Shown piece by piece: positions 15,784-21,014 of a DNA stretch of 64,000 nucleotides (position 1 is its first letter; the number at the start of each line of letters is the position of its first letter). Below the pieces are notes generated by a model. That model had not been told where the DNA came from. It searched no databases and saw only the letters and a list, made by a program, of their open reading frames with translations. The DNA is from Tabrizicola aquatica (lineage in GTDB: Bacteria > Pseudomonadota > Alphaproteobacteria > Rhodobacterales > Rhodobacteraceae), in contig NZ_PJON01000005.1 in assembly GCF_002900975.1 (NCBI RefSeq), positions 1 to 64,000 of the forward strand. The letters run 5' to 3'. A program made the translations under genes and the position numbers.

Positions 15784-16312
15784 CGGGCTTCACCCCCCAG
15801 AGGGCAGTCTTGCGCACCCAGCCCCGCGCGCCCTCCAGCCCGACGCGGCACCAGTCGGCCTGACATTCCTGCACCCGGCCGATCACGCCCATCTCGGCCT
15901 GCGCGACCACCGCCGCGGAATCGTCCGGGGCCGCGCGGATCTCGGCCATGTCCAGCGTGATCATCGCCGTGCGCACGCCGGACAGCAGCGAATAATGGAC
16001 CCAGCCGCCCGCGCCCTCATTATCCTCGACCCGGCGCCAGTTCTCGAACTCGGCGGTAATCTTCAGCGGCATGCCGGCGCGGGTGAACACCCAGTCGATC
16101 CGGTGCGTCAGCCCGGGGCCGCGGCGCGCGTTGCCTTCGGACCCTTTCAGCGAGACGTAACGGGGCAGCGGCAGGTTGGTCACGCAGCCCACATCGGGAA
16201 GGCACTGCTTTTCCGGCGGCTTTTCCGGCTGCGGGCTGTCCGTCTCTTGCGCCATCAGCGGCAAGGCCGCCAGCGCCAGCAGGATCGCAATGCCACCCAG
16301 GAACCGTTTCAT
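15767..16312 (-). CDS. Secreted SH3-domain protein
   Basis: A 181-residue periplasmic protein with a clear signal peptide (MKRFLGGIAILLALAALPLMAQ). It has two bacterial SH3-like modules, the first around YVSLKGSEGNARRGPGLTHRIDWVFTRAGMPLKI and the second around EIRAAPDDSAAVVAQAEMGVIGRVQECQADWCRV. CQADWCRVG-x-GW is typical of DUF1058/SH3_4 proteins, which usually contact cell-wall peptides. The long upstream frame is a shadow; the ATG at 16312 begins the signal peptide. It overlaps the CDF gene downstream. Confidence 0.85.
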   Translation of the reverse strand: MKRFLGGIAILLALAALPLMAQETDSPQPEKPPEKQCLPDVGCVTNLPLPRYVSLKGSEGNARRGPGLTHRIDWVFTRAGMPLKITAEFENWRRVEDNEGAGGWVHYSLLSGVRTAMITLDMAEIRAAPDDSAAVVAQAEMGVIGRVQECQADWCRVGLEGARGWVRKTALWGVKPDEIVE

Positions 16313-16432
16313 GCCCGTCCGCCTTGTCGCCCGCTGTCGGGCGCGTGCCCCTCTACTGGGGCTTGTGCATTCAGCCCCTTGGCTTAACCTTGCCTCAAGC
16401 ACGGTGGATTTGGAAGGGTCAGGGGAAAGTTC

Positions 16433-17419
16433 ATGCCAGCACAGCGTCTGTCGGTCGTGGTGACCCGCCGCCTGCCCGAGGTCGTCGAGACCCGGATGAA
16501 AGAGCTGTTTGATGTCACCCTGCGCGACCCCGACACCGCCATGACGCGGGAAGAGCTGGCGGCGGCGATGCGCCAGGCCGATGTCCTGGTGCCCACGATC
16601 ACCGACACGATCGACGCTGCCCTGCTGGCCCAGGCTGGCGAGAAGCTGAAGCTGATTGCCAATTACGGCGCGGGGGTGGACCATATCGACGTGGCCACCG
16701 CCCGGCAGCGCGGGATTCTGGTGTCGAACACCCCCGGTGTGATGACCGAGGATACGGCCGACATGGTGATGGCGCTGATTCTGGCCGTCACCCGTCGCAT
16801 CCCCGAGGCGCTGGCGATCATGCAGTCCGGTGCCTGGCCGGGCTGGTCGCCGATGGCCAACCTGGGCGGCCGGCTGGGCGGGCGGCGGCTGGGCATCCTG
16901 GGCATGGGCCGGATCGGTCAGGCCGTGGCGCGCCGGGCGCGGGCCTTCGGTCTTCAGGTCCACTATCACAACCGCAAGCGCGTCCGCCCCGAAGTCGAGG
17001 CCGAGTTGGAGGCGACCTATTGGGAAAGCCTGGACCAGATGCTGGCGCGGATGGACATCGTCAGCGTGAATTGCCCGCACACGCCCTCGACTTTCCACCT
17101 GCTGAATGCGCGGCGGCTGAAGCTGATGAAACCCTCGGCCGTGGTGGTGAACACCTCGCGCGGCGAGGTCATCGACCAGAACGCCCTGACCCGCGCCCTG
17201 CGGGCCGGAGAGTTGGCGGGGGCGGGCCTTGATGTCTATGAACACGGCAGCGAACTGAACCCCCGGCTACGCGAATTGCCCAATGTCGTCCTGCTGCCGC
17301 ATATGGGATCGGCCACGATCGAAGGGCGAATCGAGATGGGCGAGAAGGTGATCATCAACATAAAGACCTTCGCCGATGGCCACCGTCCACCCGACCAGGT
17401 TGTGCCGGGCATGTTCTAG
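16433..17419 (+). CDS. D-2-hydroxyacid dehydrogenase, probable D-glycerate/glyoxylate type
   Basis: A 328-residue NAD(P)-dependent dehydrogenase interconverting hydroxypyruvate or glyoxylate and D-glycerate or glycolate. The Rossmann motif is LGILGMGRIGQAVARRARAFG (about residue 153), the catalytic Arg lies in VVNTSRGEVIDQNAL, the Glu in LDVYEHGSELNPRL and the His in VVLLPHMGSAT. It is a monocistronic plus-strand gene. A second hydroxypyruvate reductase type (ghrA-like) is at 26227. Confidence 0.87.
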   Translation: MPAQRLSVVVTRRLPEVVETRMKELFDVTLRDPDTAMTREELAAAMRQADVLVPTITDTIDAALLAQAGEKLKLIANYGAGVDHIDVATARQRGILVSNTPGVMTEDTADMVMALILAVTRRIPEALAIMQSGAWPGWSPMANLGGRLGGRRLGILGMGRIGQAVARRARAFGLQVHYHNRKRVRPEVEAELEATYWESLDQMLARMDIVSVNCPHTPSTFHLLNARRLKLMKPSAVVVNTSRGEVIDQNALTRALRAGELAGAGLDVYEHGSELNPRLRELPNVVLLPHMGSATIEGRIEMGEKVIINIKTFADGHRPPDQVVPGMF

Positions 17420-17493
17420 CCGCCAGAACCGCCAATTCTTGTGCCAAAACCGCAACGATTGCAGGCCGAAATCGGCGGAATCATGGTTATTCA

Positions 17494-17522
17494 TTGATGC
17501 TGATAGCCAGCGCCGATAGCGT
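17494..17522 (+). promoter_or_regulatory. Predicted promoter of small-peptide gene 1
   Basis: TTGATG (17494-17499), 17-base spacer, TAGCGT (17517-17522). The ATG is 55 bases downstream. The same layout precedes genes 2-4 of the array. Confidence 0.5.
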
Positions 17523-17576
17523 CGATGGGCGCCCTGTCATTTTGACGGGATCGTCCAACATTCTTTGGAGTCCATC

Positions 17577-17780
17577 ATGAAGAAACTTGTCGCCTCGGTC
17601 ATGGCCCTGACCCTCGGCACCTCGGCCGCTATGGCCGGCGGCCCGGTTGTGGTTGAAGAAGAAGCTGAAGTCGTGGCGGAAAAGCCCGCTTCCTCGGCCG
17701 GCATCCTGCCGCTCCTGCTGATCCCGATCATCCTGTGCGTCGCTCTGTGCGGCGGCGATGACGACGAAGCTGCCGAGTAA
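17577..17780 (+). CDS. Small secreted hydrophobic peptide, array member 1 of 6
   Basis: A 67-residue protein of unknown function. A signal peptide (MKKLVASVMALTLGTSAAMA) is followed by GGPVVVEEEAEVVAEKPASS, then the hydrophobic core ILPLLLIPIILCVALCGG with two cysteines, and an acidic tail DDDEAAE. The ATG at 17577 has GGAG seven bases upstream, so the four extra N-terminal codons of the open frame are not used. The family is common in Rhodobacterales and sometimes misnamed in databases as I recall. It is the first of six head-to-tail paralogues and has its own promoter and terminator. Confidence 0.85.
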   Translation: MKKLVASVMALTLGTSAAMAGGPVVVEEEAEVVAEKPASSAGILPLLLIPIILCVALCGGDDDEAAE

Positions 17781-17825
17781 TCGGATCCGCGTCGCGGTCC
17801 TTTGGGCCGCCTCGCACCGGTTCAG

Positions 17826-17851
17826 GGCCAGTCCTTTGGACTGGCCTTTTT
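17826..17851 (+). terminator. Rho-independent terminator of small-peptide gene 1
   Basis: GGCCAGTCC, loop TTT, GGACTGGCC (perfect 9-bp stem) followed by TTTTT. Confidence 0.92.
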
Positions 17852-17911
17852 CGTTGCCGTTAACCCTTGGTGCGAAAATGCAACAGCTTTCGCCCAGCGC
17901 ATTTCCCCGGT

Positions 17912-17940
17912 TTGAGCATTTACTGCAAAGTAACTAGGGT
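17912..17940 (+). promoter_or_regulatory. Predicted promoter of small-peptide gene 2
   Basis: TTGAGC (17912-17917), 17-base spacer, TAGGGT (17935-17940), 57 bases before the ATG. Confidence 0.5.
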
Positions 17941-17996
17941 ACCCTTCAGTTGCGTAGGCGCTTGCCTGCACACGTCCCTGAAATGGAGTTTTTACC

Positions 17997-18224
17997 ATGA
18001 ACAAGATCCTTGCTGCCGCCCTGGCTTCGGCTATGGCCATCTCGGCCACCACCGCTTATGCCGGCGGCCCGATCGTCGTTGAAGAAGAAGCCGAAGTCGT
18101 GGCTGAAAAGCCCGCTTCGTCGGCCGGCATCCTGCCGCTTCTGCTGATCCCGATCATCCTGTGCGTCGCGCTGTGCGGCGGCGATGATGATGAAGCGAGC
18201 GAACTCCCGGACAACATGGGCTGA
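17997..18224 (+). CDS. Small secreted hydrophobic peptide, array member 2 of 6
   Basis: A 75-residue paralogue of member 1. Signal peptide MNKILAAALASAMAISATTAYA, mature start GGPIVVEEEAEVVAEKPASSAG, the identical hydrophobic core ILPLLLIPIILCVALCGG, and a longer tail DDDEASELPDNMG. A GGAG ribosome site precedes the ATG. The core is nearly identical at the DNA level to the neighbours, while the signal peptide and tail vary, indicating repeated duplication with selection on the core. Confidence 0.87.
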   Translation: MNKILAAALASAMAISATTAYAGGPIVVEEEAEVVAEKPASSAGILPLLLIPIILCVALCGGDDDEASELPDNMG

Positions 18225-18247
18225 TAGGCCCCATGCCGAAAAGTCAG

Positions 18248-18273
18248 GGGCGGTCCTTCGGGGCCGCCCTTTT
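18248..18273 (+). terminator. Rho-independent terminator of small-peptide gene 2
   Basis: GGGCGGTCC, loop TTCG, GGGCCGCCC (9-bp stem with a wobble), then TTTT. The stem is the same as that at 19012. Confidence 0.88.
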
Positions 18274-18323
18274 CATTACTGCCGCATCCGCGCCACAGAC
18301 CCCGAAAAAAGGGCCTCCGCAGA

Positions 18324-18352
18324 TTGAGCCTGCCGTATTCGCCGGTTAGCAT
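18324..18352 (+). promoter_or_regulatory. Predicted promoter of small-peptide gene 3
   Basis: TTGAGC (18324-18329), 17-base spacer, TAGCAT (18347-18352), 47 bases before the ATG. Confidence 0.5.
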
Positions 18353-18398
18353 ATGTCGGCGCTGTTGCAGCGCCTGTATTCTACCCAAGGAACAAGAC

Positions 18399-18617
18399 AT
18401 GAAGCACCTCATTGCATCCGCCCTGGCGACCTCGATGGCCCTGGCGGCCACCACGGCCTATGCCGGCGGCCCCGTCCTGATCGAGGAAGAAGCCGAAGTC
18501 GTGGCCGAAAAGCCCGCCTCCTCGGCCGGTATCCTGCCGCTGTTGCTGATTCCGATCATCCTGTGCGTCGCCCTGTGTGGCGGGGATGACGAAGAAGAAC
18601 GGTCGCAAACCGACTGA
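18399..18617 (+). CDS. Small secreted hydrophobic peptide, array member 3 of 6
   Basis: A 72-residue paralogue. Signal peptide MKHLIASALATSMALAATTAYA, then GGPVLIEEEAEVVAEKPASSAG, hydrophobic core ILPLLLIPIILCVALCGG, tail DDEEERSQTD. The open frame extends 25 codons upstream across the predicted promoter; the ATG at 18399 after AAGGAACAAGAC begins the signal peptide and is preferred. It has its own promoter and a downstream hairpin. Confidence 0.86.
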   Translation: MKHLIASALATSMALAATTAYAGGPVLIEEEAEVVAEKPASSAGILPLLLIPIILCVALCGGDDEEERSQTD

Positions 18618-18626
18618 TCGCCCCAA

Positions 18627-18650
18627 GGGGTAATCCGACCGGGTTACCCC
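18627..18650 (+). terminator. Hairpin after small-peptide gene 3
   Basis: GGGGTAATCC, loop GACC, GGGTTACCCC form a 10-bp stem with one wobble, ten bases after the stop. No T-run follows. Confidence 0.6.
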
Positions 18651-18700
18651 GCCCTGATGCCGCAGTTGCGCAACAGGTCCACAGTTATTTCCTGGACGAA

Positions 18701-18729
18701 TTGTGACCCGCCTGCGGGGCCTTTATGGT
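18701..18729 (+). promoter_or_regulatory. Predicted promoter of small-peptide gene 4
   Basis: TTGTGA (18701-18706), 17-base spacer, TATGGT (18724-18729), 46 bases before the ATG. Confidence 0.5.
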
Positions 18730-18774
18730 GACCGCACGCTGCCAAAAGCGTTACGAACCACCTGAGGGACAATC

Positions 18775-18987
18775 ATGAACAAACTGATCGCATCCGCCCT
18801 GGTCTCGACCTTGGCGCTGTCGGCCTCCACCGCCTATGCCGGCGGACCGGTCATCGTCGAAGAAGATGAAGTCGTCGCTGAAAAGCCCGCGTCGTCGATG
18901 GGCATCCTGCCGCTTCTGCTGATCCCGATCATCCTCTGCGTCGCGCTCTGCGGCGGCGATGATGAAGAGCCCGTGCGCCCGGCCTGA
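18775..18987 (+). CDS. Small secreted hydrophobic peptide, array member 4 of 6
   Basis: A 70-residue paralogue. Signal peptide MNKLIASALVSTLALSASTAYA, then GGPVIVEEDEVVAEKPASSMG (the acidic stretch is one residue shorter and Ala is replaced by Met before the core), hydrophobic core ILPLLLIPIILCVALCGG, tail DDEEPVRPA. The ribosome site GAGGGAC precedes the ATG. It has its own promoter and terminator. Confidence 0.87.
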   Translation: MNKLIASALVSTLALSASTAYAGGPVIVEEDEVVAEKPASSMGILPLLLIPIILCVALCGGDDEEPVRPA

Positions 18988-19011
18988 TCGCAGGGTTACA
19001 CAATGACTTGG

Positions 19012-19036
19012 GGGCGGTCCGATAGGGCCGCCCTTT
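19012..19036 (+). terminator. Rho-independent terminator of small-peptide gene 4
   Basis: GGGCGGTCC, loop GATA, GGGCCGCCC, then TTTGCTTT. The stem is identical to the terminator of gene 2, showing that the duplicated unit includes its terminator. Confidence 0.85.
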
Positions 19037-19125
19037 GCTTTAGATCATCGCATTTCGATGTGTCCTGTGGCAGGCTTTCCGTGTCCCGTCCCTGAAGCGG
19101 GATGATTCACGTCAGGATTGACCCC

Positions 19126-19359
19126 ATGAACAAACTGCTTGCCTCTACCCTGGCCTCGGCCCTTGTCCTGTCCGCTGCCACCGCCCATGCCGGCGGCCCG
19201 GTGGTGATCGAAGAGGAAGAGGAAGTCGTCGCCGAAAAGCCCGCCTCCTCGGCCGGCATCCTGCCGCTTCTGCTGATCCCCATCATCCTGTGCGTCGCAT
19301 TGTGCGGCGGGGATGACGATGAGCCGCAGCGCATGATCATTGACGAAGAAGACTTGTAA
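19126..19359 (+). CDS. Small secreted hydrophobic peptide, array member 5 of 6
   Basis: A 77-residue paralogue. Signal peptide MNKLLASTLASALVLSAATAHA, then GGPVVIEEEEEVVAEKPASSAG, hydrophobic core ILPLLLIPIILCVALCGG, and a long acidic tail DDDEPQRMIIDEEDL. The start at 19126 matches the other signal peptides; eight in-frame upstream codons are judged non-coding. No promoter of the TTGAGC-17-TAGNRT type is evident upstream, so it may depend on a different signal. Confidence 0.85.
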   Translation: MNKLLASTLASALVLSAATAHAGGPVVIEEEEEVVAEKPASSAGILPLLLIPIILCVALCGGDDDEPQRMIIDEEDL

Positions 19360-19373
19360 GGCAGTTTCTGCCT

Positions 19374-19418
19374 GGGGCACGGAACGCTTTCGCCGCTTTG
19401 GCGTTGGGTCCGTGCCCC
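19374..19418 (+). terminator. Long hairpin between small-peptide genes 5 and 6
   Basis: GGGGCACGGA (19374-19383) pairs perfectly with TCCGTGCCCC (19409-19418). The loop contains a further CGC/GCG stem. No T-run follows, so it could be an attenuator or an mRNA-stabilising structure rather than a full terminator. Confidence 0.55.
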
Positions 19419-19459
19419 CGATCCCGGGCGGCAAGGCAAATCTAACCTGGGGACGTGAG

Positions 19460-19696
19460 ATGAAAAGACTTCTGGCTTCCACGCTGGCCACCGGCCTGGT
19501 GTTTTCGGCTGCCACCGCCCATGCCGGCGGGCCCATCATCATTGAAGAAGAAGAGATTCCGGTGGTCGAGGAACGGCCGGCCTCCTCGGCCGGTATCCTG
19601 CCGCTTCTGCTGATCCCGATCATCCTTTGCGTCGCGCTGTGCGGCGGCGATGATGATGAAGAAGAAACCCCGCCCCCGGTTATTGTCGGGAACTAG
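19460..19696 (+). CDS. Small secreted hydrophobic peptide, array member 6 of 6
   Basis: A 78-residue paralogue and the most divergent of the array. Signal peptide MKRLLASTLATGLVFSAATAHA, then GGPIIIEEEEIPVVEERPASSAG (EERP replaces AEKP), hydrophobic core ILPLLLIPIILCVALCGG, tail DDDEEETPPPVIVGN. The open frame begins 40 codons upstream inside the hairpin region, but the ATG at 19460 after GGGGACGTGAG starts the signal peptide. It may be co-transcribed with member 5. Confidence 0.84.
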   Translation: MKRLLASTLATGLVFSAATAHAGGPIIIEEEEIPVVEERPASSAGILPLLLIPIILCVALCGGDDDEEETPPPVIVGN

Positions 19697-19716
19697 CCCT
19701 ACGCCGACCCGACCAG

Positions 19717-19740
19717 CCCGGGCGGTCAGAACCGCCCGGG
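19717..19740. terminator. Bidirectional hairpin between the peptide array and the FAD oxidoreductase
   Basis: CCCGGGCGGT, loop CAGA, ACCGCCCGGG is a perfect 10-bp stem. Its loop contains the stop codon of the convergent oxidoreductase gene (19726-19728). Confidence 0.7.
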
Positions 19741-20964
19741 TCTGTAGGGCGCAGTATCCAGTGGCGGCGGTTGCTCGTTCAGCAGCGCCGCCACGATCCG
19801 CGCGGTGACCGGGGCAAGCGTCACGCCCAGATGCCCGTGACCAAAGGCCAGCACCACCTCGGCCCCGCCGACCGACGGCCCGATCACCGGCAGACTGTCG
19901 GGAAGGCTGGGGCGAAACCCCATCCACTCGCGGTCCGGTGCGCCAAGATCGGGAAAGAAGGTCCGCGCCCCCTCGACCAGCCGCTCGATGCGGTGGGGTG
20001 AGGGCGGCAGGCGCAGCCCCCCCAACTCGACCGTTCCCGCCACCCGCAACCGGCCCGCCATCGGGCACAGGTAAAAGCCGCGCGCCGTGGGGCAAGTGGG
20101 GCGCGAGAGCAGGGGCTCGGCCATGTCCCACTCGACATGATAGCCGCGTTCGGTGTCCAGCGGCACCCGATCCCCCGCCTGCCGCGCCAGATCGCGGGAA
20201 TGCGCCCCGGCCGCGATGATCACGCGGCGCGCGTGCAGATGCAGACCCGGCCCCTCGATCACCACGCCGTCCGGCTTGCGCGTCAGACGCTCGGCCCGCA
20301 CCGGCAGATGCCGCGCTCGGGCCAGCACCGCCGCTGCCAGAAGCCCCATCATCCGGCCCGGATCATCCAGAAAGGTCGCGCCGGGAAAGAAGGCCGCCCC
20401 GGCCGCGGGGGGCAGGGCGGGCTCCATTTCGGCCAGTTCGTCGGGGCCGATCAGATCGACCTCGACCCCCAGGACGCGGCGGCGGGCCATCTCGGCCTCG
20501 GCCGCCTGCAGGGCCTCGGCGGTCTCATAAAGGTAAAGACAGCCGCGACGCTGCAGGATGCCGGCGCCCTGCACCCGCAGCGCCAGATCATCCCACCGCT
20601 CGCCCGCATCGGCCAGCAGCGCGGCGATGGCGCGGGCGTTCCGCTCGGTCGCGGCGGGCAGGGACTGGCGCAGAAAGCGCAGAAGCCAGGGCATCAGGCT
20701 GGGCAAGGCCCGGTGCCGGATCGCCAGCGGAGAGGTCCGGCTGAACATCAGCGACGGCAGCGACCGCAATACATCCGGCGTGCCGACCGGGCTGGTGGCA
20801 TAGCCGGCGATGGTGCCGGCGTTGCCATAGCTTGCGCCCATGCCGGGCGGGCCGGGATCGACCAGCACCACCTCGCGGCCCTGGTCCACCAGCTCCAGCG
20901 CGATGGTCAGGCCCACCACGCCAGCGCCGATTACGGCGATCTCGGTCCGTTCCCGGTTGAACAT
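19726..20964 (-). CDS. FAD-dependent D-amino-acid dehydrogenase-like oxidoreductase
   Basis: A 412-residue flavoenzyme of the DAO/DadA family, which oxidises amines or D-amino acids to imines. It shows the N-terminal FAD motif IAVIGAGVVGLTIALELVDQGREVVLVD, GMGASYGNAGTIAGY, the internal ARRVIIAAGAHSRDLAR and the C-terminal MGFRPSLPDSLPVIGPS...VVLAFGHGHLGVTLAPVTARIVA. It lies downstream of the alcohol dehydrogenase, separated by a palindromic repeat, and on the same strand as the amine-type catabolic genes, so a role in that pathway is likely but unproven. Confidence 0.83.
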   Translation of the reverse strand: MFNRERTEIAVIGAGVVGLTIALELVDQGREVVLVDPGPPGMGASYGNAGTIAGYATSPVGTPDVLRSLPSLMFSRTSPLAIRHRALPSLMPWLLRFLRQSLPAATERNARAIAALLADAGERWDDLALRVQGAGILQRRGCLYLYETAEALQAAEAEMARRRVLGVEVDLIGPDELAEMEPALPPAAGAAFFPGATFLDDPGRMMGLLAAAVLARARHLPVRAERLTRKPDGVVIEGPGLHLHARRVIIAAGAHSRDLARQAGDRVPLDTERGYHVEWDMAEPLLSRPTCPTARGFYLCPMAGRLRVAGTVELGGLRLPPSPHRIERLVEGARTFFPDLGAPDREWMGFRPSLPDSLPVIGPSVGGAEVVLAFGHGHLGVTLAPVTARIVAALLNEQPPPLDTAPYRPGRF

Positions 20965-20986
20965 CGGTCACTCACTACGCGCGGGC

Positions 20987-21014
20987 GTAGGGTGGGCAAT
21001 ATTGCCCACCCTAC
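20987..21014. repeat. Palindromic repeat B, copy 2 (perfect)
   Basis: A perfect 28-base palindrome with arm GTAGGGTGGGCAAT. The stop codon of the iron alcohol dehydrogenase (TAG, 21013-21011 on the minus strand) is formed by the palindrome itself. Confidence 0.9.

Follow-up and report, generated by a model that had tools for sequence, protein, structure and literature searches.

A six-gene array of small, putatively exported peptides in Tabrizicola aquatica and its family across Rhodobacteraceae

What might a bacterium do with six tandem genes for almost the same small hydrophobic peptide, and how do such genes keep one segment matched? The question is raised by a stretch of 64,000 nucleotides from Tabrizicola aquatica (contig NZ_PJON01000005.1, positions 1 to 64,000; "the window" below means this whole stretch), in which six head-to-tail genes on one strand, between positions 17577 and 19696, encode peptides of 67-78 residues. 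An initial annotation had placed six such open reading frames here and credited them with an identical 18-residue core; both are found as described, and the unchanged stretch is even longer than claimed, namely GILPLLLIPIILCVALCGGDD. Each of the six peptides begins with a signal peptide ending in AxA and continues with a GGP start, an acidic linker and PASS before a hydrophobic helix that is the same in all six. We propose that the six genes could represent an amplified branch within a Rhodobacteraceae family of small peptides exported by Sec, for which an envelope function is probable. The family is present in most sampled genera of this widespread group, yet has no Pfam, NCBIfam or PHROGs match, and its arrays lend themselves to asking how one segment stays alike among paralogues when their DNA is not obviously homogenised.

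A peptide family across Rhodobacteraceae

A search across relatives, which the initial annotation had suggested for the core, was made here with a family profile built from 40 diverse members and found the family in 128 of the 150 Rhodobacteraceae genera sampled, or in 127 of 149 when good genomes alone are counted. All 5 matching genomes of a 289-genome class panel belong to this same family, as do 22 of the 25 that match in a phylum panel of 299; the three outsiders are weak (expectation value, E, about 3e-5; two partial matches and one full-length). Within the genus, 31 of 32 genomes (the window's included) have matches, at 0 to 11 per genome, and the recurrence of this gene type through genus and family excludes a chance origin of the window genes. 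One to three copies are usual among Rhodobacteraceae genera, and tandem runs of six (genome G043), five (G152) and three (G081, G124 and G888) occur in other genera. The window genome (G000; 3.87 Mb in 12 contigs) encodes three further members, at C5:338672 (75% identical), C1:904927 (52%, a fusion to a Peptidase_S74-like domain) and C1:744999 (51%); a fourth match, at E 0.08, was set aside.

The plan common to the family, as read from sequence, is a hydrophobic segment of 16-18 residues with a proline near its start, and then a short tail whose charge is hardly ever positive. All six window peptides have the defining series of AxA then GG, an acidic linker and a hydrophobic helix with its early proline, and the proline is present in all 40 rows of the alignment of diverse members (A3). 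Every genus copy used (n = 115) contains a hydrophobic 16-mer in its mature part, with a mean hydropathy of 2.97 and a minimum of 2.21, and mean charges in these copies are -3.6 for the linker and -3.3 for the tail. Genus tails are net negative in 109 of the 115 and net positive in 2, while among 68 members from other genera 45 tails are negative and none is positive. A common short form, MKKLALAAALxxAASTAFAGGMxEPVMEPEVV...SSSxGGIxVPLLLLLxxAAAxSN, has neither cysteines nor an acidic tail. AlphaFold2 gives the peptide two helices only, at residues 3-16 (the signal peptide) and 45-60 (mean predicted local distance difference test score 69.2, predicted template modelling score 0.30). To the membrane insertion that the initial annotation had raised as a speculation, this model contributes the predicted helix 45-60 beside the signal-peptide helix.

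Comparison of the plain peptides with Pfam, NCBIfam, PHROGs, PADLOC and PDB sequences gave no credible relative. The best PDB matches (E down to 9.5e-5) were designed propeller repeats aligned to the linker, in which no stretch was significant alone, and we rejected them as chance matches to low-complexity sequence. None of the plasmid, phage and viral collections searched held a match to the peptides, which by those tests are not mobile cargo, and literature searches found no paper on this peptide family. Judged by these comparisons, the family is real, undescribed and spread across Rhodobacteraceae.

Selection and conversion in the core

The initial annotation had ascribed the invariance of the core to strong selection or gene conversion, and had proposed comparing synonymous with nonsynonymous change between copies. 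We retrieved 118 copies from 30 genus genomes and used 115 of them in the evolution tests, leaving out the three dispersed copies of G000 (S74 fusion included); tests across 14 arrays make no correction for phylogeny. Among the six window genes the ratio of nonsynonymous to synonymous divergence (dN/dS) is 0.044 in the core, 0.181 in the linker and 0.446 in the leader. The proportion of synonymous differences (pS) is also lower in the window core (0.30) than in the leader (0.49) or linker (0.51). Other arrays give a higher core dN/dS than the window, 0.253 over 139 within-genome pairs, which we read as some arrays mixing core types.

In fourteen arrays the first genes have a leader type, MKKLIASVMALTLGASAAMAGGP, that is common to them across species. 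Leaders of these first genes are 0.88 identical between orthologues and 0.45 identical to the other genes of their own array. Core amino acids behave otherwise, with identities of 0.75 between orthologues, 0.94 within an array and 0.77 for non-orthologous pairs between genomes, whereas the corresponding values at four-fold silent sites of the core are 0.67, 0.67 and 0.61. When each array is compared with its nearest genome (among the 14 that have a first-type gene, the one closest in silent sites of the dehydrogenase gene; second-contig paralogues are also counted in G026, G029 and G030), core amino acids are 0.93 identical to paralogues and 0.76 to the orthologue (Wilcoxon p 0.013; 10 of 14 arrays higher, 1 equal, 3 lower). 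At silent sites of the core the order is reversed, 0.64 against 0.72 (p 0.035). The effect is driven mainly by G007, G020, G021, G029 and G030. The first gene of G011, which has a disrupted start, was excluded from these first tests and then restored; its core does not differ from the G023 core.

In these alignments, then, copies within a genome agree in the amino acids of the core but not in its silent sites. Given this lack of silent homogenisation, recent conversion alone does not explain the homogeneity of the core across the 14 arrays. The selection part of the initial suggestion therefore stands, and conversion survives as a partial event in one genome: copy 5347 of G016, set against its four sisters, has a leader pS of 0.73-0.79, a core pS of 0.20-0.25 and near-identical tail DNA.

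Dispersed copies, YjbH-YjbF and a possible role

Clustering of the open reading frames that flank retrieved loci, together with Pfam scans, placed dispersed copies in two settings (some loci were retrieved twice, so counts are of loci and not of genomes). In setting A, YjbH (PF06082, E 6.2e-180), YjbF (PF11102, E 7.8e-15) and the peptide follow one another in this order, with TamB beyond in many loci. In setting B the order is YkuD L,D-transpeptidase, peptide and ferrochelatase, together with a CAP-domain gene; this arrangement was seen for short-form members at about 30 retrieved loci (L058, L060, L076 and others, a few of them twice), and a functional link is not obvious. No record confirmed that short Rhodobacteraceae proteins of this type carry the name ferrochelatase, an association that may stem from the true ferrochelatase gene next door.

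YjbH is present in 94 of the 150 genera of the family panel. Taking a member within 3 kb as co-located, at least 19 of these 94 genera, G000 among them with its copy at C5:338672 beside YjbF-YjbH, have a peptide gene 0.7-1.3 kb 3' of YjbH, where uniform placement would give 0.21. The rows compared were most, not all, of those from the family panel (some array copies are omitted) plus 15 from a narrower profile, some picked for looking near YjbH; the family-panel rows alone supply 12 of the co-locations and the added rows 7, including one partial match (G057). With related genera not independent and some rows hand-picked, the co-location is evidence of association and not a calibrated p-value. 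The two genes also co-occur, YjbH being found in 87 of 128 peptide-bearing and 7 of 22 peptide-lacking genera (Fisher p 0.0018, phylogeny ignored), on the assumption that both panels comprise the same 150 genomes and with G891 taken as one of two lacking genera that are unnamed. With G162 moved to the peptide-bearing side, on a narrower-profile match, the counts become 88 of 129 and 6 of 21 (p 0.0011).

The homologous E. coli genes offer a possible context. The gfcABCD and yjbEFGH genes are described as acting in capsule or exopolysaccharide production, with GfcB resembling LolA (PMC8592465), and a model of GfcD includes a lateral gate for polysaccharide on a lipid anchor (PMC11494523). GfcA, of 101 residues and possibly secreted or located in the inner membrane (PMC8592465, PMC11494523), is presented in the former account as small and uncharacterised, with the proposal that it is modified and then sent to GfcD for export. 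Like GfcA/YjbE (PF11106; the first gene of gfcABCD and yjbEFGH), our peptide is small and putatively exported, and some dispersed copies, though not the six-gene array, are encoded beside GfcB/YjbF and GfcD/YjbH; a peptide in that position, exported with its hydrophobic helix bare, fits a GfcA-like route. The two also differ. GfcA is threonine-rich (30%), whereas members of the peptide family are acidic and have a long aliphatic helix; the GfcA gene comes first in its operon, whereas the peptide gene is found 3' of yjbF; and YjbH and YjbF adjoin directly in setting A loci (YjbG/GfcC was not searched for). The recurrent place by YjbF-YjbH nonetheless offers a tangible way into the GfcA/YjbE step of polysaccharide export, which is itself uncharacterised. 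A further likeness is to PEP-CTERM and GlyGly-CTERM, the C-terminal sorting signals of exosortase and rhombosortase systems, in which a short motif is likewise followed by a hydrophobic helix close to the C terminus; unlike the proteins bearing them, our peptides have no large passenger domain, and their tail is acidic instead of basic.

A second line of evidence comes from the fused members. The family member at C1:904927 in G000 (L008:1495-1926) is joined to a Peptidase_S74-like domain with a Ser-x4-Lys dyad, although its S74 match (E 7.2e-4, 20.2 bits) is under the Pfam cut-off of 22. Full-length matches to this fused member occur in 7 of the 150 genera, G000 included, and the dyad is retained in all 6 fusions read of those 7; a search of the six window peptides for the S74 domain (PF13884) found none. 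Fused members share their kind of domain, and the six read also the dyad, with Peptidase_S74/ICA-domain proteins such as phage endosialidases and MyRF. Cleavage of the MyRF chain by the Ser-Lys dyad is reported to require a trimer, and S911 and K916 are the counterparts of the dyad in endosialidase NF (PMC8326128). The peptide fusions stop soon after the short Pfam domain, and the window peptides are without it. An S74-type cut falls just before the serine. At that point in a fusion it would release a product resembling the array peptides, and the fusions in this way hint at oligomers.

From these observations we tentatively favor a reading that we would sooner call possible than probable, namely that these are exported single-helix peptides that co-assemble in the envelope and have a GfcA-like role. 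Signal peptidase I would remove the leader, leaving a peptide of roughly 45-57 residues held in the envelope by one helix with negative charge on both sides. Paralogue matching and the S74 fusions suggest that the helices of different copies pack together or with one common partner. Copies in a genome would then have to share the core, while leader, tail and regulatory region would be freer, giving one effector under several separate switches. The neighbourhood of dispersed copies suggests that the ancestral job was tied to the route by which surface polysaccharide passes the outer membrane, YjbF-YjbH (GfcB-GfcD), with the peptide as an accessory or a hydrophobic passenger or anchor of that route. 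It is conceivable, though we consider this fuller version distinctly improbable, that surface polysaccharide has membrane anchors or helix-bundle subunits made of protein and that our peptides are these, with YjbF as their carrier and the lateral gate of YjbH setting them in place, that all paralogues in a cell mix in one complex so that the helices of an array change in step, and that the S74-fused members trimerise and cleave themselves to give the same mature peptide. Were paralogues indeed mixed in one complex, core amino acids would co-vary within a genome and silent sites would not.

Several observations weigh against a co-assembling, GfcA-like peptide. The six-gene array is not itself beside YjbF-YjbH, as one dispersed G000 copy is, and lies between metabolic genes; the commonest context of retrieved short-form loci is setting B, with ferrochelatase and YkuD, and not YjbH. 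Of the at least 19 YjbH neighbours, 13 are on the same strand and 6 on the opposite one, so that the genes do not form one operon in those 6, and a comparison of the panels by hand finds no YjbH match in 41 of the 128 peptide-bearing genera. The YjbE profile (PF11106) passes its Pfam cut-off in 0 of 61 family genomes, and the six peptides do not match it up to E 1. Were the peptide a glycan acceptor, a Ser/Thr pair ahead of the helix would be wanted, and such a pair occurs in 77 of 115 genus copies and in 52 of the 68 from other genera, not in all. The S74 domain follows the helix and would be cytoplasmic if that helix acts as an ordinary stop-transfer segment. As for paralogue matching, the effect is uneven and reversed in 3 of 14 arrays; restoring the G011 orthologue reduces it to 0.93 against 0.80 in the core (9 of 14 arrays, p 0.039 on rounded values; silent sites p 0.028) and slightly lowers our confidence in the proposed mechanism; and in the window genome the core is 0.99 identical to paralogues and 0.96 to the nearest orthologue, a slight difference. 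Silent identity of the dehydrogenase gene, at 0.56-0.69 for the nearest pairs used, is near saturation between species, so that old conversion followed by strict selection could also have produced the pattern. In either case, selection keeps the copies alike.

Much of this could be a matter of dosage and regulation only, with an abundant structural envelope peptide copied under different promoters, a YjbF-YjbH position inherited without function, and cores under ordinary purifying selection. The separate 3' hairpins and leaders of the genes, the low core dN/dS, the near-universal spread of the family, the genera with peptide and without YjbH and the small paralogue effect in the window genome all agree with this explanation, which we regard as possible but doubtful: purifying selection alone does not make paralogues closer than nearest orthologues while cores differ between species, as they do across the 14 arrays (with or without G011), and the YjbH neighbourhood comes in two arrangements, same-strand and convergent. 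Concerted evolution, in which conversion would have copied the middle and 3' half between paralogues repeatedly while leaders escaped, would account for the leader and core contrast and shared tail DNA of the G016 copy, and for the reduced pS of the window core. We consider it unlikely, as four-fold identity in the core is no higher among paralogues than among orthologues in the 14 first-gene arrays, and paralogue silent identity is below that of the nearest orthologue whether or not G011 is included.

Two further explanations concern what the products are. Tandem genes for small secreted hydrophobic peptides with variable tails recall a bacteriocin-like cluster of antimicrobial or signalling peptides, but the family is near-universal in Rhodobacteraceae, the array keeps its genus position, the core is conserved rather than diversifying, and PADLOC, phages, plasmids and viral contigs contain no match (exporter and immunity genes lay outside these searches), all of which leaves such a role very improbable. 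We give still less credence to the peptides being lipoproteins acylated on the second cysteine (ALC followed by GGDDD). The acidic CGGDDD start after a hydrophobic stretch, and the LVAC or ALAC of some relatives, are suggestive of this. A lipobox before the cysteine is the mark of a lipoprotein, and that motif fits 8 of 109 cysteine-bearing genus copies and none of the six window copies, where VAL-C in all six led us to reject a lipoprotein identity; most short forms of other genera, moreover, have no cysteines.

Layout of the array and its site in the genus

The six genes, all on the + strand, lie at 17577..17780 (gene 1, 67 residues), 17997..18224 (gene 2, 75 residues), 18399..18617 (gene 3, 72 residues), 18775..18987 (gene 4, 70 residues, with SMG replacing SAG ahead of the core), 19126..19359 (gene 5, 77 residues) and 19460..19696 (gene 6, 78 residues, with the linker VVEERPASS). 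Gene 1 has the leader type MKKLVASVMALTLGTSAAMA, common to first genes in 13 other genus genomes. The initial annotation noted that start-to-start distances shrink steadily (420, 402, 376, 351, 334). The figures are correct, but the trend is not general and probably has no meaning: spacing decreases monotonically in 14 of 24 array contigs with at least three copies, and of these 14, 10 have two intervals only and 2 include a jump of 52-56 kb.

By eye, each gene can be seen to have a Shine-Dalgarno-like stretch ahead of it, and the sequence after each stop folds into a stable hairpin (-27.5 to -41.3 kcal/mol; z -1.47 to -4.31, weakest for gene 5), that of gene 1 being a terminator-like hairpin at 17824..17848 (+). 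A stable 3' hairpin and a ribosome-binding stretch at each gene make it likely that the six are separate small transcription units; we looked for a sigma-70-type consensus promoter at the array and found none. Upstream of gene 1, at 17533..17549 (+, position read from the sequence), lies a 5' leader hairpin, CCTGTC-ATTTT-GACGGG, whose six pairs are retained in most of 14 genomes. Covariation is weak, with one pair changed on both sides, and for that reason we do not claim a regulatory role. An Rfam search of 16000-21000 gave a single chance-level match.

The array is flanked on the left by a D-2-hydroxyacid dehydrogenase-like gene (16433..17419, +) and on the right by a D-amino-acid dehydrogenase-like FAD (flavin adenine dinucleotide) oxidase gene (19726..20964, -), both named by reading the sequence, without a family search. 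These conserved flanks define one site in the genus, the first of them being seen in the retrieved stretch for 26 of the 29 genus genomes other than the window's. Copies share one strand in all 24 contigs with at least three. Tabrizicola soli belongs to the genus, and its locus L040 encodes the same proteins as locus L011 of genus genome G006. In the draft genome G011 (C29), one array copy is seemingly frameshifted in the core and another has a disrupted start, through sequencing error or decay. In G003 (C15), G009 (C2) and G028 (C51), flank-adjacent members are separated by about 52-56 kb of the same contig, as if a single array had later been rearranged.

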